Assembly: GCA_903944895.1 (NCBI GenBank)
Contig: CAJATL010000026.1
Location: 1 to 53,058 of the forward strand
Source of the DNA: an uncultured Bacteroidota bacterium
GTDB taxonomy: Bacteria; Bacteroidota; Bacteroidia; Bacteroidales; 4484-276
Direction: 5' to 3'
DNA length: 53,058 nt
Shown one piece after another: positions 4,180 through 30,377 of the stretch. Every line of letters begins with the position of its first letter. Within the stretch, counting starts at the first letter, position 1. Under the pieces are notes generated by a model that was not told where the DNA came from, ran no database searches, and saw only the letters and a list, made by a program, of their open reading frames with translations. The translations under genes and the position numbers were made by a program.

Positions 4180-4331
4180 GGTCAGTCAAAAACTGTTGAT
4201 TTTGGGCTAAAGCCCGGTAACTGATTGGTTTTCAATAGCCCCACCCTTAAGGGTGGGGCTATTTATATCCGTGACATTCAGGGCTTTAGCCAAATTCCTT
4301 TGAATTTTCGATGCCTTTTTAGACCAGTCTC
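4180..4331. repeat. MITE-like palindromic repeat, copy 1
   Basis: About 150 bp with nested inverted repeats: an outer pair GGGCTAAAGCCC ... GGGCTTTAGCC and an inner hairpin GCCCCACCCTTAAGGGTGGGGC. The right end reads TTTTTAGACCAGTCTC, and the left end (GTCAGTCAAAA) is its imperfect inverted repeat. A second copy with the same layout is at 30224-30377; the inner stems differ but keep their pairing. No coding potential. It looks like a non-autonomous element or mobile intergenic hairpin family. Confidence 0.75.
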
Positions 4332-8596: not shown

Positions 8597-8614
8597 CCCC
8601 GATAGCTATCGGGG
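8597..8614. repeat. Perfect 18-bp palindrome CCCCGATAGCTATCGGGG, copy 1
   Basis: A self-complementary 18-mer between the fucosidase and the SBBP gene. The 16-bp core CCCGATAGCTATCGGG occurs twice more, at 17331-17348 and 30130-30147, always outside genes. It could act as a cruciform or hairpin, but there is no T tract. Confidence 0.8.
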
Positions 8615-15733: not shown

Positions 15734-15806
15734 TCTCCCCGGAAGGACTCGAACCTTCGGCCCGATGATTAAGAGTCATCTGCTCTACCAACTGAGCTAC
15801 GGAGAG
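15734..15806 (-). tRNA. tRNA-Lys (anticodon CTT)
   Basis: A 73-nt cloverleaf on the minus strand. Acceptor CTCTCCG pairs with CGGGGAG, the D-arm is GCTCAGTTGGTAGAGC, the anticodon stem GATGA/TCATC frames loop CTCTTAA (anticodon CTT), and the T-arm is GAAGGTTCGAGTCCTTC with discriminator A. CCA is not encoded. Confidence 0.95.
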
Positions 15807-17094: not shown

Positions 17095-17425
17095 GAAGGA
17101 TGGAAGAATTCGACAATGAGGCAATTCGACGATTCGACAATGGAAGAATGAAAAAATGAAAAAATGAAATGATGGAATGGTGGAATGTTGGAAGATTGGA
17201 AAGGCAGTGGAATTTAACAATTCGACAATTTGATAATTCGACAATGGAAGAATGGAAAAATGGAATGATGGAAGAATGGAAGAGTGGAGTGATGGAAAGG
17301 CAGAGGAATGGAACAATTCGACAATTTGACCCCCGATAGCTATCGGGGCGACAATGGAAGAATGGATGAATGGAAAAATGGAATGATGGAATGATGGAAA
17401 AATGGAAGATTCTTTGATTCCGGCA
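17095..17425. repeat. Low-complexity GGAAGAATGGAAAAATGG-type repeat tract
   Basis: About 330 bp made of drifting 7-10 bp words (GGAATGATGGAA, GACAATTCGACAATTTGA, GGAAGAATGG), interrupted at 17331-17348 by the CCCGATAGCTATCGGG palindrome. Open frames here on both strands are by-products of the repeats and give Phe/Ser/His/Ile-rich or Glu/Trp/Met-rich translations. Confidence 0.8.
17331..17348. repeat. Perfect 18-bp palindrome CCCCGATAGCTATCGGGG, copy 2
   Basis: Identical to the copy at 8597-8614. Here it is embedded in a simple-sequence tract, immediately between two copies of the word GACAAT. Confidence 0.8.
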
Positions 17426-24358: not shown

Positions 24359-24432
24359 GGGCCTATAGCTCAGTTGGTTAGAGCAACTGACTCATAATCA
24401 GTAGGTCCCTGGTTCAAGTCCAGGTGGGCCCA
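24359..24432 (+). tRNA. tRNA with CAT anticodon, probably tRNA-Ile2 (CAU, lysidine-modified)
   Basis: A 74-nt cloverleaf. Acceptor GGGCCTA pairs with TGGGCCC, the D-arm is GCTCAGTTGGTTAGAGC, the anticodon stem ACTGA/TCAGT frames CTCATAA (anticodon CAT), the T-arm is CCTGGTTCAAGTCCAGG, and the discriminator is A. No encoded CCA. The acceptor and D-arm look like tRNA-Ile, so Ile2 is favoured over elongator Met, but this is not certain. Its 3' end is the integration site of the element that follows. Confidence 0.9.
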
Positions 24433-24435
24433 CAA
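24421..24435 (+). repeat. Attachment-site core, tRNA end (CAGGTGGGCCCACAA)
   Basis: A 15-bp direct repeat made of the last 12 nt of the tRNA gene plus 3 nt. It is repeated exactly at 29685-29699 and again at 30148-30162. The first two copies bound the integrative element. Confidence 0.85.
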
Positions 24436-24446
24436 CAAAATAACAG

Positions 24447-24484
24447 AAAGCCTTGTAAATTAGATATTTACAGGGCTTTTTAAT
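24447..24484 (+). terminator. Terminator following the tRNA, inside the element's left end
   Basis: AAAGCCTTGTAAAT pairs with ATTTACAGGGCTTT, followed by TTTAATTT. Because it lies just inside the attachment core, the element supplies this terminator to the host tRNA. Confidence 0.75.
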
Positions 24485-24488
24485 TTGA

Positions 24489-24513
24489 TAGCTAACAAAT
24501 AACTAACAAAAAT
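24489..24513. repeat. 25-bp arm-type repeat, left copy
   Basis: The 25-bp sequence beginning TAGCTAACAAAT is identical and in the same orientation at 29546-29570, 54 bp inside the left core. Likely an integrase arm-binding site. Confidence 0.75.
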
Positions 24514-24543
24514 CAGTTTTTCAAGCCTATTTTCAGCCTGTTT

Positions 24544-25158
24544 TCATAATATAAGCCAGCCCCTTTTCATGCAATATTTTCCAAAATCAAGGAATCTTCT
24601 TTGATCAAGGATTTCCTTTTTTGCTTCCAGAAAGTTAATTCTTTTTAACAATCTTGTTTCCTTTCCCTGATAATGGCTTTTCCTTTGCATTTGGTAACAT
24701 TCTTCAAGCTTCCTTTCAGCTTCAAAATATCTGGAATTATGATAATCCTTTTTGCTGGAAATCTGGGATTGATAAAATATCCTGATCTGATAGGCTTTCC
24801 TTGCTTTGAAGTAAAGGCTTCCATAACATCTGTAAATAATCCGGCTTCTTCTTCCTGATCTGGGGCAAATGAAATAGTAAATTTCCCCCTTTCCCAGATT
24901 GCTGGGGATTGAATCCAGCCATATCTTGTAATCCAGATTTTGAATTTCCCCTGATGAATCTTTCATCTGATAAGCCAGCCTGATAAATTGCTTTTCTTTT
25001 GTTAATTCTGAATAAATGTTGATTGTACTTCCACTATTCCAAGAAATACTACTTTGAATAATACAGCCTTTCTGAATGTAGCCAGCCTTGAAAAGATAGC
25101 TTAATTCCAGCCTTTGGGCCCCTGAAGTAGTTACTTTGCCTGAAGAATTTCTTCCCAT
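24544..25158 (-). CDS. Unknown mobile-element protein with degenerate zinc-ribbon-like segment
   Basis: 204 aa, last gene of the element. The N-terminus reads MGRNSSGKVTTSGAQRLELSYLFKAGYIQ. A central segment (about residues 95-135: FICPRSGRRSRIIY ... LYFKARKAYQ) has the layout of a zinc ribbon found in mobile-element proteins, but only Cys98 of the expected Cys pairs is present; the others are Ser101 and Ala119/Ala122. The C-terminal third is basic and helical. From memory, similar proteins accompany integrative elements in Bacteroidota; no function is known to me. Arg is encoded almost only by AGA/AGG, as in the whole element. Confidence 0.6.
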   Translation of the reverse strand: MGRNSSGKVTTSGAQRLELSYLFKAGYIQKGCIIQSSISWNSGSTINIYSELTKEKQFIRLAYQMKDSSGEIQNLDYKIWLDSIPSNLGKGEIYYFICPRSGRRSRIIYRCYGSLYFKARKAYQIRIFYQSQISSKKDYHNSRYFEAERKLEECYQMQRKSHYQGKETRLLKRINFLEAKKEILDQRRFLDFGKYCMKRGWLIL

Positions 25159-25283
25159 TTTTACTTGATTTTTGAAAATAGCCTAAATCCTTAAAGATAA
25201 AAAGCCCTTGATTCTTCTGCTTTCTTAGTGTATCAAGGCTTTCAGGCTGTTTTTATTGTTTGCATTTGTGTAAAGTTTTATTC

Positions 25284-25523
25284 CTAATCAGGAAGCCCTT
25301 CTTCCCATTCTTTTATTCCATTATCCCAGGCTGATAGATCAATTTCAAATTCAGGAATTTCAATTTCAAATTCAGGAATTTCAATCTTCCATTCTGATAA
25401 TTCCTTTTCCCATTTGATCATTCTTTTTTTCCAATCAGAAAGTTCTTGATTCCAATCAGGAAGTTCAATCTTCAATTCTTGAAGATCTTCTTCCTTCATT
25501 CCTGTATGTTTTGCTTTGTTCAT
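25284..25523 (-). CDS. Small Trp-rich repetitive protein of unknown function
   Basis: 79 aa from ATG 25523; the frame is open further up to 25619, but that would overlap the replication gene. The protein is a string of short W-containing repeats of the form LPDWNQELSDWKK, ELSEWKIEIPEFEI, EIPEFEIDLSAWDNGIKEWEEG, strongly acidic and with no Cys, and almost no Val or Thr. It resembles a beta-solenoid or short-repeat adaptor more than an enzyme. It lies 52 bp after the replication gene in the same direction. I do not recognise the family. Confidence 0.5.
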   Translation of the reverse strand: MNKAKHTGMKEEDLQELKIELPDWNQELSDWKKRMIKWEKELSEWKIEIPEFEIEIPEFEIDLSAWDNGIKEWEEGLPD

Positions 25524-25575
25524 AAGGATAAGATTTCTTCCCCTTTTTAATACCATAGAAAAGGATTCCTGTTTT

Positions 25576-26520
25576 TTAGTTTGCTGCAATTCTTGCTTGA
25601 AGAAGATCAAGAATATCATATTTGCTTATTCCCTGAAGCCCTATCTTCTTTAAATTATCCCTGATAGTTCTAAGCCTTGCTTTTCTATCTGATGGGCTGA
25701 AAACATCTTCAGGAATTGCTTTCAGTTTGTTCTTGATCAGTTCTTCAGTATTGAAATTGTAAACTGATTCCAATTCCTTCAAGATCATTAAAGGAATGGT
25801 CCCTGCATTAATATCAGCTTTGCTTGTTGGCATAATTGATTTTCCTGTTTTCATTATTTTTTGATATGAATTAAGAAGTTCATTTTTCAGGCTTTGCTGG
25901 AAGATGGAAGCAAGTACTTCATTCAGCTGAAGATTCCCTTTGAAATAGGCTTCAGGCTTCTTGTAATGATTTTCTATCTTGATATAGTGCTTTTCTTTAT
26001 CCCAGCCATAAAGCTTTGATATTTCTTCCCTGATGGGCTTTTCCAGCTTGTTCTTGATATTCCTGTTAATATCATAAAGCTTTATCTTCAGGCTGGAAGA
26101 ATCAAATTCTTTCCCTGTTAAAATGCTGCCTTTCCTGTAATCCCTTGTTTGAAATCCTTTTGCTTTGATGTGATTCAGAAGAAATTCAGATTCCGGAAAA
26201 GGGATTTCCTGAATGGTGCCAAATTCGAAACAAGTTACAAGCCCTGAAAAGATATTAATATTCATGCTTCCCTGAAGATATTCAAGCCCTTCAATCCAAT
26301 CATGTAAGGAAGAATAGTAATTATGCCCATTGATAAAATAAGGAATGCTTCCTTTTATCTTGATCTGATTGCTTTCCGGATAATTCCAAACTTCAATTTT
26401 TTTGCAGCCTTGAAAGGAATATCTTTCAGCATTTGGATATAGTGCTTCCCTTTCCATATTATGGAAATTTGGCTTATCTTTGCCCATGAATTTGGCAATT
26501 TCAATATAATCCAAGTTCAT
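25576..26520 (-). CDS. Predicted rolling-circle replication initiator (filamentous-phage gpII/RstA-like)
   Basis: 314 aa. The order of motifs resembles replication initiators of filamentous phages and related Bacteroidota elements: IKGSIPYFINGHNYYS (residues 55-70, matching the S-L-x-K-x-x-x-GHN motif), LVTCFEFGTIQEIPF (94-108), LKIKLYDINRNI (144-155, matching the K-x-Y-x-K region) and YIKIENHYKKPEAY (179-192, matching the L-R-x-E motif). This is recognition by pattern, not by alignment. Such proteins nick at an origin and start rolling-circle replication of an excised circle. The start overlaps the preceding gene by 20 bp. No coat or Zot gene is present, so this is not a complete inovirus. 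Confidence 0.55.
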   Translation of the reverse strand: MNLDYIEIAKFMGKDKPNFHNMEREALYPNAERYSFQGCKKIEVWNYPESNQIKIKGSIPYFINGHNYYSSLHDWIEGLEYLQGSMNINIFSGLVTCFEFGTIQEIPFPESEFLLNHIKAKGFQTRDYRKGSILTGKEFDSSSLKIKLYDINRNIKNKLEKPIREEISKLYGWDKEKHYIKIENHYKKPEAYFKGNLQLNEVLASIFQQSLKNELLNSYQKIMKTGKSIMPTSKADINAGTIPLMILKELESVYNFNTEELIKNKLKAIPEDVFSPSDRKARLRTIRDNLKKIGLQGISKYDILDLLQARIAAN

Positions 26521-26998
26521 AAATATCCACAGGAAGCCCTATTGATCTGGGGCTTTTTGTTTTATAGTTTCGTAAATAGTTGAATGCTTGCTGAAGAAAT
26601 TCAGGCTTTCCCATGCCTTTGAAATGATGGATTTCCATTGATTCAAAACATTGATTTTCTGAATAGATAATCAGCAAATCAAAAATTCCATATCTTTCAT
26701 CAAGAATGCCATATCCATAAAATTCAGGAAATTCTTCATTTCCCCAGATTGAAGAATGAATCTTCCTGTTATCAATGGAATCATAAAGCCCTGATTCAGC
26801 TTTCTTGTAAAGCCCATTGATTTCATTTTTCTTCAAGGTATCTTTCAAGGAAGTTTTTCTTTGTGCAAAAATCCCCCAGCTTATTCTGGCTGGAAGGATT
26901 CCTTTCTTCCCCCCAGCTTGATAAAAGCTTCCTTTTGTGCCTTCCTTTTTCTGATAGGATAAAGGAATATGACAGTTTTCAATGAATCTTTCATTCAT
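26501..26998 (-). CDS. Unknown element protein (165 aa) upstream of the replication gene
   Basis: Read from ATG 26998 (MNERFIENCHIPLSYQKKEG); the frame extends to 27088, but that would overlap the HTH gene by 74 bp. The first ~75 residues are Gly/Lys-rich (GTKGSFYQAGGKKGILPARISWGIFAQRK). The last ~90 contain IWGNEEFPEFYGYGILDERYGIFDLLIIYSENQCFESMEIHHFKGMG. The second half might be an alpha/beta fold (hydrophobic FDLLIIYSE strand), but I do not recognise it. It lies between the HTH and replication genes and overlaps the latter by 20 bp, so a replication-linked job is plausible by position only. Confidence 0.5.
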   Translation of the reverse strand: MNERFIENCHIPLSYQKKEGTKGSFYQAGGKKGILPARISWGIFAQRKTSLKDTLKKNEINGLYKKAESGLYDSIDNRKIHSSIWGNEEFPEFYGYGILDERYGIFDLLIIYSENQCFESMEIHHFKGMGKPEFLQQAFNYLRNYKTKSPRSIGLPVDIYELGLY

Positions 26999-27014
26999 AA
27001 ATATCCTTTCTGAA

Positions 27015-27293
27015 TTAAGAAGCTTTGATGTAATTTCTTTCAAGGTGGGCTTCAATATCAGAATCTTTGATATAGATCTTCCCAGCAAATCTGGAATAAG
27101 GAAGGATTCCTTTCAGAAGATAGTTATCCAATGTTTTAAGGCAAACTTTCAGCCTGATCTGGGCTTCCTTTTTAGAATGCCATTTGTTCAAATCATTTTG
27201 CTTTTCTTTTTTCTGAAGAAGATTTTTGATTTCATTCAGATCAGCTTGAAAGGAATTTAGCCTTTCAGTTGGGATAAGTGTTAAATTTTCCAT
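27015..27293 (-). CDS. Helix-turn-helix / excisionase-like DNA-binding protein
   Basis: 92 aa. The C-terminal ~55 residues (WHSKKEAQIRLKVCLKTLDNYLLKGILPYSRFAGKIYIKDSDIEAHLERN) have the winged-helix excisionase/HTH_17 layout: a scissor helix pair, then the R-x-x-G-x-x-x-I-x wing and a final D-I-E helix. The N-terminal part is a short coiled coil (LNEIKNLLQKKEKQ). In related elements such proteins direct excision or control the element's operon. It is the first gene of the HTH-unknown-Rep block; a 113-bp gap separates it from the 239-aa gene. Confidence 0.8.
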   Translation of the reverse strand: MENLTLIPTERLNSFQADLNEIKNLLQKKEKQNDLNKWHSKKEAQIRLKVCLKTLDNYLLKGILPYSRFAGKIYIKDSDIEAHLERNYIKAS

Positions 27294-27406
27294 GTTTTAC
27301 CAGAATTTTATGTTAATAATCTGGGGCAAATCTATTTTAGCATGGAAAAAGAACACATATAAAAGGAAGCCTGTTTTCAGTTCCTTTTTAAATGGCTGGA
27401 AATGCT

Positions 27407-28126
27407 TTATTTAAAGGGTGGGAATGATTCTTTTCCTTTGTAATTATTAAGCAATGTTCTGATATATTCTTCCTGCAATACTTTTGAAGATTCCACAGGA
27501 AGGAAGCTTGTTAATTCCAGAAAATCATAAATGAATTTCCCCTGATCATTGCTGATGAAATTGCTTCCTGATTTCAATTCTGTTTCATTGTTAAGATATT
27601 GCAATAATCCAAAACTGATTAATGCCTGATAATAAGTTGAATTTGGCTTTCCTTTAGTTTTTTGAACTTTCTGAAATTTATTTTCTTTCAGGAATAGATC
27701 ATTACTTCTTTCTTCCATGAAGTAATAATGAATGATTTCCCCTACTTGAAGAAGAAGTTCAGGAACTGATATTTTGATTTTTCCTTTTTTACCCTTTGAA
27801 GAAAACTTCATTTCAAGAAAATCAATCTGATTATTTTTCAAGGCTTCAGATAGTTCTATCAGGCTAAATTCTTCTTTTTGTTCTATTTCAATTTCCTTTC
27901 TAAAATCCTTGTTATATTTTAGAAATTCAGGAAATACTTGAAGCCATTTTGAAAGATCTTCAAAGAATGGAAAATATCTGTTTAATCCATATTCTGAAAG
28001 TAATTCTTCCAGATCAGCCTTCCTGATTTCAATTCCTTCCAAATCATACATTAATGACATGGGGGGAATGCCCTGAAAGTATTTCTGGAATGTAGCAAGA
28101 TTAATATTTGATTTTGGCTTCTTCAT
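27407..28126 (-). CDS. Unknown element protein (239 aa) after the integrase
   Basis: Starts 12 bp after the integrase stop, so it is probably cotranscribed. The protein is largely helical, rich in Glu, Lys, Leu, Phe and Ile with no Cys and very few Val or Thr. Notable segments: ADLEELLSEYGLNRYFPFFEDLSKWLQVF near the N-terminus, KISVPELLLQVGEIIHYYFMEERSNDLFLKEN in the middle, and a C-terminal helical repeat. No catalytic or nucleotide-binding motif. It may be a regulatory protein of the kind (RteC-like or similar) found next to Bacteroidota integrases, but I see no motif to prove it. Confidence 0.5.
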   Translation of the reverse strand: MKKPKSNINLATFQKYFQGIPPMSLMYDLEGIEIRKADLEELLSEYGLNRYFPFFEDLSKWLQVFPEFLKYNKDFRKEIEIEQKEEFSLIELSEALKNNQIDFLEMKFSSKGKKGKIKISVPELLLQVGEIIHYYFMEERSNDLFLKENKFQKVQKTKGKPNSTYYQALISFGLLQYLNNETELKSGSNFISNDQGKFIYDFLELTSFLPVESSKVLQEEYIRTLLNNYKGKESFPPFK

Positions 28127-28138
28127 TGCTTCAAGGGA

Positions 28139-29500
28139 TTAATTGAAAACTGATTTCATGGCTGAATCTTGGGAATCCAGATCAAGCTTATTCAAATAAC
28201 TTTGTGTTATTGAAATATTGGAATGCCCCAGCATTTGCATAATATCATAAACTGAAATGTTCTTCTTTCGGGCCATATCAGCAAAAGAATGCCTTGCTAC
28301 ATGGCTTGAAATTTTCTTCTTTATTTGGGCCCTTACAGCAATTACTTTCAATCCTGCATTAAAAACAGCTATCCTGCTTTCAACTTTTCCGAAAAGGAAA
28401 GAAAGCATTTCTGGGGAAGCCTTTTGAAAATCTTCAGGGCTGATCAGCTTTGAATATTCTGCTTTATTATCAAGGAAAGGAAAGATAAAATCAGAATCCT
28501 TTTCCTTTTTTGATTCATAATATTTCAGGATTTTTAAGGCTTGGGGAAATATCTTAATACTTCTGATTTTTGCAGTTTTGCCCATTGAATAAATTAGCCT
28601 TCCTTCTTTGATGTTTGCAAATTTCAACTGAAGTAAATCCCCTATTCTGATTCCAGCATTGTAAAGGCTGAAAAGGAAAGCATTTCTGATGTGAAAAAGA
28701 ATATCTGATTCATCAAGATTAATCTTTTCAATTCTTGTAATTTCGGAAATATCAAGCTTTTCTTTTCCTGATTCAATTATTTTTGGCATTTCAAAATTAA
28801 GAAAGGGATTCTTTTCAGGGGAAATAATCTTATCTGTTTTGATGGCTTCTTTCTGAATAACAGTTTTCAGATTCTTCAAGTTTATATGAATGTAGTTAGG
28901 ATGGGCCCCCTGCTTTGCCAGATATTTACTGAAATCCTTCAAGAATCCTGAAGTTAATTCTTCAATGGGAAGGGGCTTATCCTTCCTGAATGCTTTCAGC
29001 TTTCTTAATACAGCTGAATATTTTTCAGAAGTTCTTATCTGTTTATCTTGAAATTTTGAATTTGCTACTTCCTGAAAATATTGAAAGAAATCCTTCCTTG
29101 CATTTTCTGCCTTATCCTTATTTTCATAAAGGCTTTTCAAAATATTGGAAGATATTTCCTTCTTTTCAACTTCAAGCCTTTTCTGAATTTCTTCCAGCTT
29201 TGAAATTATGGCCCTGATTTCAGAATTAATCTTGAATGCATTTGGAAGAAGAATGATTGATTTTTGCTTTTCCTTGAATGCCTGTATTTCATCATTTGAA
29301 AGGCTTTCCTGAAGCTTCTTTGTTAGGGTGGGCATTGATTCCCATGCTTCAGAATTATCTTCATTCCAAGCCCTTGAAGGGATTGAAAATCCTGCTGAAA
29401 TGTAGCTTGTTTTGGCATTGTAATAAATCCTGATGTAAACAGGATATTCCCCATTTGAATAAGGCTGGGGGAAAAGGAAGCCTTTCATTTTTGATTTCAT
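28139..29500 (-). CDS. Tyrosine recombinase/integrase of the element
   Basis: 453 aa, with the three-domain layout of Bacteroidota integrases. Residues ~1-95 are an arm-DNA-binding domain (YPVYIRIYYNAKTSYISAGF). Residues ~135-235 are a SAM-like core-binding domain. Residues ~250-440 are the catalytic domain with Arg285 (NAGIRIGDLL), His400-x-x-Arg403 (SSHVARHSFADMARKK), His426 (LGHSNIS) and nucleophile Tyr435 (TQSYLN). All five recognisable catalytic residues are present, so it should be active. It is divergently placed at the right end, ~185 bp from the right core repeat and next to the right arm repeat, as expected for the gene that inserted the element at the tRNA. Confidence 0.93.
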   Translation of the reverse strand: MKSKMKGFLFPQPYSNGEYPVYIRIYYNAKTSYISAGFSIPSRAWNEDNSEAWESMPTLTKKLQESLSNDEIQAFKEKQKSIILLPNAFKINSEIRAIISKLEEIQKRLEVEKKEISSNILKSLYENKDKAENARKDFFQYFQEVANSKFQDKQIRTSEKYSAVLRKLKAFRKDKPLPIEELTSGFLKDFSKYLAKQGAHPNYIHINLKNLKTVIQKEAIKTDKIISPEKNPFLNFEMPKIIESGKEKLDISEITRIEKINLDESDILFHIRNAFLFSLYNAGIRIGDLLQLKFANIKEGRLIYSMGKTAKIRSIKIFPQALKILKYYESKKEKDSDFIFPFLDNKAEYSKLISPEDFQKASPEMLSFLFGKVESRIAVFNAGLKVIAVRAQIKKKISSHVARHSFADMARKKNISVYDIMQMLGHSNISITQSYLNKLDLDSQDSAMKSVFN

Positions 29501-29545
29501 AATTCAGTTCATTAAATATCCAATACAAAGTTAACTTTTATTAGT

Positions 29546-29570
29546 TAGCTAACAAATAACTAACAAAAAT
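29546..29570. repeat. 25-bp arm-type repeat, right copy
   Basis: Identical to 24489-24513 and in the same orientation. It lies 46 bp upstream of the integrase start and 114 bp inside the right core repeat. Confidence 0.75.
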
Positions 29571-29684
29571 AATTGCTTTCTTTTTCTTTGTTTTTCTTGA
29601 ATATTCTTTTTATTAACTGATTATTAGTACTTTTACAGGAAGTAAGAAAGCATTTAAAAGTATCAAAAGGAAGGATTTCCCCCA

Positions 29685-29699
29685 CAGGTGGGCCCACAA
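29685..29699 (+). repeat. Attachment-site core, distal end (CAGGTGGGCCCACAA)
   Basis: Exact copy of the tRNA 3'-end core at 24421-24435. It marks the right junction of the element with host DNA. Confidence 0.85.
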
Positions 29700-29705
29700 A
29701 ATAAA

Positions 29706-29745
29706 GGCTGTCTCAAAAAAACGAGACAGCCTGTTTTGTTTGCAC
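29706..29745 (+). terminator. Terminator, probably the original tRNA terminator
   Basis: Stem GGCTGTCTC / GAGACAGCC with loop AAAAAAAC, followed by TGTTTTGTTT, starting 6 bp after the distal core. Before the element inserted, this hairpin would have followed the tRNA directly. Confidence 0.8.
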
Positions 29746-29813
29746 CTGTTTAGAGACAATCAGGAGATAGTCAATTCACTGGTAACTGATTTTTTTGTTA
29801 GCTACTTTAATTT

Positions 29814-30110
29814 ATGTTTTACTGTTATCTACTTTACAGTTTACGATTAAATCGCTTTTACATTGGCTCTACTACTTTGCCTGTGACCGAACGTTTTGAA
29901 AATCATGTAACCAAACATTATGGTAATGATGCTTTTACGGCTAAAACTACTGATTGGGAAATTTTCCTCTCCATTGAATGCGCTTCATATCATCAGGCAA
30001 AATTATTGGAAACTCATATTAAAAAGATGAAGAGTAGTGCCTACAACAGAAATCTTAAAAAATTCCCCGAAATGATTGAGAAACTTTTAATGAAATTTCC
30101 AGGCGAATAA
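29814..30110 (+). CDS. GIY-YIG nuclease domain protein
   Basis: 98 aa, essentially one GIY-YIG domain. The N-terminal strand YCYLLYS and RFYIGST form the GIY...YIG motif; the Arg in TERFENH and the Glu in LLETHIKKMKS correspond to the catalytic Arg and metal-binding Glu. Single-domain proteins of this kind are frequent in Bacteroidota and are mobile. The stop codon TAA (30108-30110) lies within the first bases of a duplicated tRNA 3' segment (30107-30162), and the gene lies between two copies of the tRNA end. This suggests a homing-like insertion targeted at the tRNA. The sequence composition is host-like, not CpG-depleted. Confidence 0.85.
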   Translation: MFYCYLLYSLRLNRFYIGSTTLPVTERFENHVTKHYGNDAFTAKTTDWEIFLSIECASYHQAKLLETHIKKMKSSAYNRNLKKFPEMIEKLLMKFPGE

Positions 30111-30162
30111 TCAGTAGGTCCCTAGTTCATCCCGATAGCTATCGGGACAGGTGGGCCCACAA
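30107..30162 (+). repeat. Duplicated tRNA 3'-end remnant split by a palindrome
   Basis: ATAATCAGTAGGTCCCT (30107-30123) matches the tRNA anticodon/variable region, and CAGGTGGGCCCACAA (30148-30162) matches its 3' end. Between them the T-loop position is replaced by an 18-bp palindrome at 30130-30147. It cannot fold as a complete tRNA. Confidence 0.85.
30130..30147. repeat. Palindrome TCCCGATAGCTATCGGGA, copy 3
   Basis: Shares the 16-bp core CCCGATAGCTATCGGG with 8597-8614 and 17331-17348. It stands in the T-loop of the tRNA remnant, replacing the four bases AGTC. Confidence 0.85.
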
Positions 30163-30223
30163 AAATTAAATCGCAACTAATTGAAATTCAATTGTTGCGA
30201 TTTTTTTTGTTAAAAGCAAACAT

Positions 30224-30377
30224 GAGTTCAGTCTAAAAACAGATGATTTTGGGCTAAAGCCCGATAACTGTCTGGTTATCAATTGCCCCGACCTTAAGGT
30301 CGGGGCAATTGATATTCGTGATATTCAGGGCTTTAGCCCAATCAATTTCATATTCACCACATTTTTAGACCAGTCTC
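30224..30377. repeat. MITE-like palindromic repeat, copy 2
   Basis: Same structure as 4180-4331: outer GGGCTAAAGCCC / GGGCTTTAGCCC, inner hairpin GCCCCGACCTTAAGGTCGGGGC, and ends GAGTTCAGTCTAAAAAC and TTTTTAGACCAGTCTC that are imperfect inverted repeats. It lies ~60 bp after the tRNA remnant. Confidence 0.75.

Follow-up and report, generated by a model that had tools for sequence, protein, structure and literature searches.

A gene for a 98-residue GIY-YIG nuclease and the palindrome-bearing tRNA fragment that trails it may together constitute one nuclease-only unit of ~0.4-0.5 kb, which lodges in tRNA genes of Bacteroidota and is matched to a cognate palindrome, a reading to which we attach about even confidence. 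It arose from a stretch of 53,058 nucleotides from an uncultured member of the Bacteroidales (contig CAJATL010000026.1), here called the window, and from its relatives in the order and class; the movement that it supposes is read from differences between species, and the nicking is proposed. If it holds, the single-domain GIY-YIG genes beside Bacteroidota tRNAs would be perhaps the smallest tRNA-lodged mobile element rather than stray nucleases, and this element would carry no recombinase or transposase of its own. They would also offer a natural series of matched nuclease and palindrome pairs from which target specificity could be read, supply a candidate partner for the palindromes dispersed in Bacteroidota genomes, and account for broken tRNA copies that annotation programs misname.

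The tRNA gene of the window and its two insertions

One intact tRNA gene of the window (Table 1) appears to have received two insertions, an integrase island and the GIY-YIG unit. The first-pass annotation had already held that at least two insertions used this tRNA and that they differ in composition, which agrees with CpG observed/expected ratios of 0.06 in the island (24434-29684), 0.99 in the GIY-YIG gene and 1.12 in the flanks. It had further placed the GIY-YIG gene between two copies of a tRNA end. Both copies are indeed present, but taking them as the two borders of a single unit was rejected: because the match at 29684-29701 has 15 nt (CAGGTGGGCCCACAA) in common with the 3' end of the tRNA at 24359-24433, and because a tyrosine integrase lies alongside, we take the tRNA end at 29685 to be the distal attachment site of a separate integrase island and not the partner of the GIY-YIG unit. 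The CpG-poor island is a tRNA-targeted integrative element of the ordinary kind, and its own att copy is not interrupted by a palindrome. It is almost free of CpG, with a GC content of 0.33, and five minus-strand open reading frames within it (24544-25158, 25284-25619, 25576-26520, 26501-27088 and 27407-28126) have no match in Pfam or PHROG at the thresholds applied.

Table 1. Features of the window discussed in the text (positions are those of the window; strand cells are empty where none applies)
Feature	Position	Strand	Basis or remark
Intact tRNA gene, anticodon CAT (tRNA-Met)	24359..24433	+	ARAGORN; host of both insertions
Tyrosine-integrase island, CpG-depleted, parting the tRNA from the GIY-YIG unit	24434..29684		att repeat, integrase, composition
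Tyrosine integrase of the island	28139..29500	-	PF00589, PF13102, PF17293
15-nt tRNA 3' end, read as attR of the island	29685..29699	+	repeat shared with the tRNA 3' end
Hairpin terminator between tRNA end and GIY-YIG gene (first terminator of the unit)	29705..29739	+	inverted repeat
GIY-YIG nuclease gene, 98 aa	29814..30110	+	PF01541, E = 8.3e-10
Displaced copy of the tRNA 3' part, palindrome-interrupted	30107..30162	+	alignment to the tRNA
Palindrome TCCCGATAGCTATCGGGA, replacing T-loop AGTC	30130..30147		perfect 18-nt palindrome
Second terminator hairpin, behind the displaced copy	30168..30204	+	sequence reading
Dispersed palindrome CCCCGATAGCTATCGGGG	8597..8614		pattern search of the window
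Dispersed palindrome CCCCGATAGCTATCGGGG	17331..17348		pattern search of the window

The GIY-YIG unit (29686-30162, ~0.46 kb) contains a single open reading frame of at least 80 residues, the nuclease gene itself, and no integrase gene, whereas the island encodes one. As had been observed in the first reading of this DNA, the stop codon TAA (30108-30110) falls within the first bases of a copied tRNA segment. The copy aligns to 24394-24435, that is, to the tRNA from inside the anticodon to just beyond its 3' end, with a score of 58.5 that was reached by none of 2000 shuffled sequences, and its best other match within the window is another tRNA gene (score 53, at 15739). It is not a plain tRNA end, the four T-loop bases having given way to a perfect palindrome. 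This palindrome, like the units on the 5' side of tRNAs described below, had no place in the first-pass annotation. A hairpin similar to the first terminator of the unit also precedes the GIY-YIG gene at another locus, L140. Two further perfect, loopless palindromes of the window, at 30277-30314 (38 nt) and 4234-4263 (30 nt), are of types that differ from that of the unit.

The GIY-YIG protein matches PF01541 over the cut-off, which places it in the superfamily, and the residues Y5, Y16, G18, R27, H31 and E66, invariant across 23 sequences, are all present in it. Pfam finds no second domain within the 98 residues, and NCBIfam has no name for the protein. An AlphaFold2 model reaches a pLDDT of 94.3. 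The best PDB matches by sequence are UPF0213 proteins (1zg2, E = 2.3e-12; 1ywl, E = 4.9e-9) and SLX1, and the top Foldseek ranks are held by UPF0213 (1zg2 first, E 0.036), SLX1 and the catalytic domain of I-TevI, with modest E-values (0.036-0.5), none of which reaches 0.001. As a single short domain resembling the UPF0213 structures, the protein is classed as UPF0213-like and stand-alone. Fold and conserved columns are common to it and to UPF0213, SLX1 and I-TevI, but SLX1 and I-TevI have additional domains, in contrast to the single domain here. Carriage of the unit as phage cargo was considered and rejected, one scan of viral_contigs with a three-sequence alignment having confirmed no relative and PHROG having given no match.

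Relatives at tRNA genes and their displaced copies

Relatives of the nuclease were sought with no use of tRNA information. A search with the window protein picked up 16 of 59 genomes, that of the window counted, and a profile (A1) built from that protein and 13 of the relatives found in this search matched 179 genomes in a sample of 344 from the order and 204 in one of 295 from the class, the window's genome (G000) being in both samples. The loci studied are the top of the score-ordered lists, and weaker hits are represented by a tail sample (E ~1e-21 to 1e-20). In a first locus set, an ARAGORN hit, broken tRNAs counted, lies on the same strand within 250 nt upstream of 57 of the 109 domain hits, L055 and L078 being one place that is counted twice among the 109, and upstream of 54 of the 91 hits with enough flank. 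Control stretches, hand-chosen at round coordinates (twenty of 20 kb, from six genomes), hold four tRNAs in 400 kb. A named set of 80 loci, retrieved with a three-sequence alignment from Bacteroidales, Flavobacterium, Algoriphagus, Cytophagales, Chitinophagaceae and others, and including a few places that are also in the unnamed set (e.g. L058 = L264), has a tRNA within 250 nt in 36 of 68 loci and, as expected of tandem units, a tRNA at 434-862 nt upstream in 11 more. Among the remaining 21 named loci, 15 are mirror images in which a 5' tRNA fragment is followed by the gene and then by an intact tRNA, with a palindrome inside the aligned fragment in seven of the 15; three have a tRNA 3' part upstream, and the last three show nothing clear (L273 is borderline).

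A further set comprises the 205 genes that cover profile positions 4 to 70 after exact repeats were dropped. From these, 193 with more than 150 nt behind the stop serve for the hairpin count and 159 with enough flank on both sides for tRNA linkage; the window's own gene is among both, and tandem copies are counted singly. With one threshold for all genes, and with a tRNA library that was built from the same loci and used for the control as well, 154 of the 159 genes have a tRNA or tRNA fragment no more than 300 nt away on one or both sides, against none of 200 control positions, on which count a merely coincidental position of the nuclease beside tRNAs was rejected. A search for Bacteroidota GIY-YIG genes near tRNAs was the check proposed in the first-pass annotation, and the homologues without tRNA sequence that it had named as counter-evidence are rare (5 of 159); in the tail sample, 15 of 20 lie above the control maximum and five do not, with best matches to Leu, Arg, Pro, Ser, Thr, Asn and CAT tRNAs. 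For genes with a whole tRNA upstream, the median distance from the end of this tRNA to the matched GIY domain is 52 nt (n = 93, with L055 left out and a few places in both the unnamed and named sets, such as L058/L264, counted twice). At L075, a stretch that spans the Val TAC and Val CAC tRNAs and the start of the GIY-YIG gene occurs twice, and the displaced copy comes from the first tRNA. At L076, palindrome-bearing broken copies beside a tRNA-Val are called tRNA-Leu(taa) by ARAGORN, and broken copies misnamed in this way can inflate the tRNA counts of an annotation.

Displaced copies were testable in 42 genes, once L055, hits that start past position 5 of the profile, broken tRNAs under a wrong name and genes with short flanks had been set aside. 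The copied segment was to be compared with the neighbouring tRNA, as had also been proposed, and the gene's own upstream tRNA is its best match, ahead of the other isotypes, in 36 of the 42. Copies score at least 30 in 34 of the 42, and these 34 have a hairpin of at least six pairs in the anticodon arm in 25 cases and in the T arm in 10 (both in seven, neither in six). In the named set, 31 of 38 copies score at least 30, with palindromes seen by eye in the anticodon, T, variable or D loop. Several displaced copies begin mid-tRNA. Because this loose search also detects a hairpin in 15 of the 42 intact tRNAs, a hairpin of the form CCCG..CGGG was taken as the specific test. It stands at most 260 nt behind the stop in 116 of 193 genes against 10 of 1400 control windows; in the same loci it is found in one of 174 at 900-1185 nt, and in 24 of 169 at 315-600 nt upstream of the gene.

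Insertion at a tRNA with restoration of the gene, as put forward in the first-pass annotation, is supported by these own-tRNA copies and by one comparison of filled and empty loci, in which the native terminator is displaced. The folC - tRNA-Val locus was searched in 25 genomes of the family of G207, of which 24 matched and 15 were read. Filled loci are L054 (= L280), L063, L070, L282, L284 and L287. L276 is clearly empty, with no GIY profile hit in 1499 nt behind the tRNA; L281 and L288 have no GIY in the 173 and 94 nt between tRNA and contig end; and L277, L278 and L279 are remnants, the last with a partial GIY hit. L283 has one palindrome-bearing 5' fragment of tRNA-Val before the intact tRNA, gave no hit to the GIY profile in the DNA examined, and is possibly a non-autonomous form or a remnant. 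In L287, seven 5' fragments of tRNA-Val with ~96-nt spacing (2018-2745) stand directly before the intact tRNA, six of them with palindromes in both the D loop and the anticodon arm, and the GIY-YIG gene lies behind the tRNA. The tRNA-Val behind folC is inverted in L285 and L286 relative to the other species.

The evidence from native terminators comes from L280 at this locus. There, the 45 nt downstream of the displaced copy align to the terminator found immediately after the intact tRNA in L276-L279, with scores of 46-51 that were reached by none of 1000 shuffles each, whereas the terminator between the intact tRNA and the gene of L280 scores 13-16. Because it is the terminator behind the displaced copy, and not the first one, that matches those of L276-L279, the unit of L280 very probably brought a terminator of its own and displaced the old one, with the tRNA left intact, as judged from one clean comparison. 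Terminators of L281, L283, L287 and L288, four of the eight loci compared, match neither terminator of L280; the first terminator of L282 is most like those of L287 (31) and L283 (26), and its second scores at most 21 to any of the eight. Among genomes of the window's family, a GIY-YIG gene comes after the CAT tRNA in G010 and, behind the island, in G000. No GIY profile hit occurs in ~1500 nt behind the CAT tRNA of G002, G003, G009 and G011, and no GIY in the 191 and 145 nt examined behind that of G007 and G008.

Dispersed palindromes, nuclease clades and Y1 transposases

Palindromes like that of the unit are dispersed. TCCCGATAGCTATCGGGA occurs at 57 places in the window's genome with at most one mismatch, the reversed pattern at none, and all 15 palindromes fetched from this genome lie outside open frames of at least 450 nt. 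Of 15 palindromes printed with their flanks and judged by eye, 14 have no evident tRNA around them. The idea that the palindromes always sit within hairpin loops was dropped as not general, since most of the 15 are without an evident outer stem by the same judgement. Across the order sample, 64 of the 344 genomes hold the exact 16-mer CCCGATAGCTATCGGG, and the nuclease is found in 62 of these against 117 of the 280 genomes without it (Fisher 4e-18, or 8e-18 without the window's genome). The two exceptions, in which the 16-mer occurs and no GIY was found, are G238 (32 copies) and G308 (15 copies), and 117 of the 179 GIY genomes of this sample are without the exact 16-mer. In the class sample, which shares nine of its 295 genomes (the window's included) with the order sample, the looser pattern TCCCGAN{3,12}TCGGGA has a median of 7 in the 204 GIY genomes against 2 in the 91 others (Mann-Whitney U test, 5e-12), while a reversed control pattern gives no difference (p = 0.54). 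Within 28 mixed families, the mean number of palindromes is higher with GIY in 20 and lower in six (Wilcoxon p = 0.002). Of the 91 class-sample genomes without GIY, ten nevertheless have at least 10 palindromes, one of them 65.

Palindrome type follows nuclease clade, this being an association among genomes that are not independent. On a tree of 122 palindrome-bearing nucleases, the type of the palindrome core changes 12 times against ~37 when shuffled, and none of 500 shuffles is as low, a clustering that tandem near-copies on the tree favour, neither genomes nor tandem copies being independent. The window's clade (51 rows) has the AGCT-centred 16-mer in 38. A profile of this clade (A3) separates 20 genomes by a score gap that was chosen after the scores were seen, and CCCGATAGCTATCGGG is present in 17 of these 20, in 45 of the 159 other GIY genomes (Fisher 1e-6) and in two of the 165 without GIY.

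Y1 transposase genes accompany the palindrome as regularly as the GIY-YIG gene does. Matches to PF01797, the family of RAYTs, which does not part these from IS200-type transposases, were counted in the genomes that come first by handle in each group (40 of the 64 with the palindrome, 40 of the 117 with GIY and without the 16-mer, 78 of the 163 with neither), plus G238 and G308. They are present in all 42 palindrome genomes tested of the 64, comprising 40 of 40 that also have GIY and both of those without it, as well as in 31 of the 40 that have GIY but not the 16-mer (Fisher 0.002) and 42 of the 78 with neither; the window's genome has six. The numbers of palindromes and of Y1 matches correlate with a Spearman coefficient of 0.25 (p = 0.13, 40 genomes). 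Since every palindrome genome tested has a Y1 match, the nuclease need not be the disperser of the palindromes, and its spreading them alone becomes less probable; since Y1 genes also occur in 42 of the 78 genomes with neither GIY nor 16-mer, Y1 alone is not sufficient. A joint role of GIY and Y1 is possible.

Competing explanations and known systems

If gene and palindrome-bearing fragment are indeed one unit, the nuclease might nick its cognate palindrome as a single strand or as an extruded hairpin and so free a segment consisting of palindrome, tRNA 3' end, terminator, gene and tRNA piece, which would then join an intact tRNA through the shared tRNA sequence, by a single cross-over or by break repair. 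Exchange inside the shared 3' part would give, in order, intact tRNA, terminator, gene, tRNA piece, palindrome, 3' part and old terminator, and exchange 5' of the palindrome would give the mirror-image form. The order that results from one such exchange is the order found in L280 and, with the island set aside, in the window. The nuclease, named in the first-pass annotation as the driver of insertion, is a candidate for that role. The same nicking may also spread lone palindromes, which is the weakest step and one that a Y1 transposase could carry out. A wider reading, according to which such nuclease-only elements are very widespread, insert on either side of a tRNA by tRNA sequence alone and rebuild it, and GIY alone or with Y1 spreads a clade-specific palindrome, is possible and on balance doubtful, having lost weight with the Y1 result.

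Other arrangements would place the origin of the palindromes or of the copies elsewhere. A division of labour like that of REP sequences and RAYTs, with Y1 transposases elsewhere in the genome moving palindromes that settle in displaced tRNA pieces among other places and with the GIY nuclease separate or a helper, is unlikely: it would explain the constant presence of Y1 in palindrome genomes, including the two without GIY, and the six matches in the window's genome, but Y1 alone is not enough, the 16-mer is held by only two of 165 genomes without GIY, palindrome type tracks the GIY clade, hairpins stand directly behind 116 of 193 GIY genes, and the Y1 count both lumps RAYTs with IS200-type transposases and gives a Spearman coefficient of 0.25 (p = 0.13) with palindrome number. 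Local tandem duplication, in which a GIY gene once landed behind a tRNA and was duplicated with the tRNA 3' end by unequal recombination, unrelated mobile palindromes settling on the dead copies, would fit the tandem arrays of units at L080, L083, L076 and L100 and the trailing GIY remnants at L070 and L104. It is rendered quite unlikely by L280, where the empty locus's terminator stands behind the displaced copy, by the many tRNA isotypes that are linked, by the tracking of palindrome type with nuclease clade and by the low hairpin background (1 of 174) at 0.9 kb. The first-pass annotation itself had leaned towards a homing-type nuclease, which would cut a unit-free intact tRNA and have the unit copied in by repair, the palindromes merely protecting the displaced copy from recutting. 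Filled and empty alleles at one locus (the unit-free L276) and the I-TevI catalytic domain among the fold matches speak for this improbable alternative, which leaves the dispersed palindromes outside open frames and their genome-wide tracking unexplained and sits poorly with a 98-residue protein in which Pfam shows no second domain.

Two explanations dispense with mobility of the unit or act at another level. An RNA-level system, with palindrome-interrupted tRNA fragments transcribed as decoys or regulators and the nuclease processing tRNA or hairpins, draws on the replacement of tRNA loops by palindromes with the stems often kept and on the 5' array of L287 before its intact tRNA; it is very improbable, given that the GIY-YIG enzymes known to us act on DNA, that several copies begin mid-tRNA and that 14 of 15 printed palindromes have no evident tRNA around them by eye. 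That a UPF0213-type housekeeping nuclease stands by chance at a tRNA used for island attachment, the copies being att sites only, is hardly credible: an integrase island does use the tRNA at 24359-24433, but the unit has no other open reading frame of at least 80 residues, the att copy of the island has no palindrome, and the tRNA linkage, the own-tRNA copies and the hairpin adjacency counted above contradict it.

The single unit of nuclease, tRNA fragment and cognate palindrome has partial counterparts among known systems. Work by Chenal and colleagues from 2025 reportedly defines the Ssn family as stand-alone GIY-YIG single-strand site-specific nucleases linked to abundant repeats, the characterised protein being said to come from Neisseria. 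A small stand-alone GIY-YIG protein and a short repeat in many genomic copies would thus be common to Ssn and to the genes described here, whereas tRNA lodging and restoration, palindrome-filled displaced tRNA, mirror units and tRNA-fragment arrays are not known for Ssn. The many-copy repeat here is strongly associated with the nuclease, but Y1 transposases co-occur with it too, and it is a candidate target. Some partnership between a nuclease and a repeat has probably been published already; the tRNA-lodged and tRNA-restoring unit is the part for which no description was found, in a search of open-access journal papers whose listed matches contain no tRNA-linked bacterial GIY-YIG unit.

REP sequences and RAYTs resemble the present case in that dispersed non-coding palindromes co-occur with one gene family and adjoin it, and in that palindrome genomes also carry a Y1 transposase, as did all of those tested here; they differ in that the gene beside the palindrome is here a GIY-YIG nuclease and not a Y1 (HUH) transposase, and in that the unit is tRNA-linked. 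The dRS3 repeats of Neisseria, ATTCCC(N8)GGGAAT, number 646-725 copies in the genomes tabulated in PMC3898611, whose passages on dRS3 describe them as a target of filamentous phage and as part of repeat arrays, with no mention there of tRNA linkage. Their TCCC..GGGA outer part, as given in those passages, is common to the palindromes of the unit, and they likewise are short palindromes, present in hundreds of copies in another phylum. Tyrosine-recombinase elements at tRNAs, finally, share with the GIY-YIG unit the insertion at the 3' part of a tRNA, the restoration of the gene and the 3' copy left behind, whereas the GIY-YIG unit measures ~0.46 kb, has no recombinase and leaves a copy that is interrupted by a palindrome.
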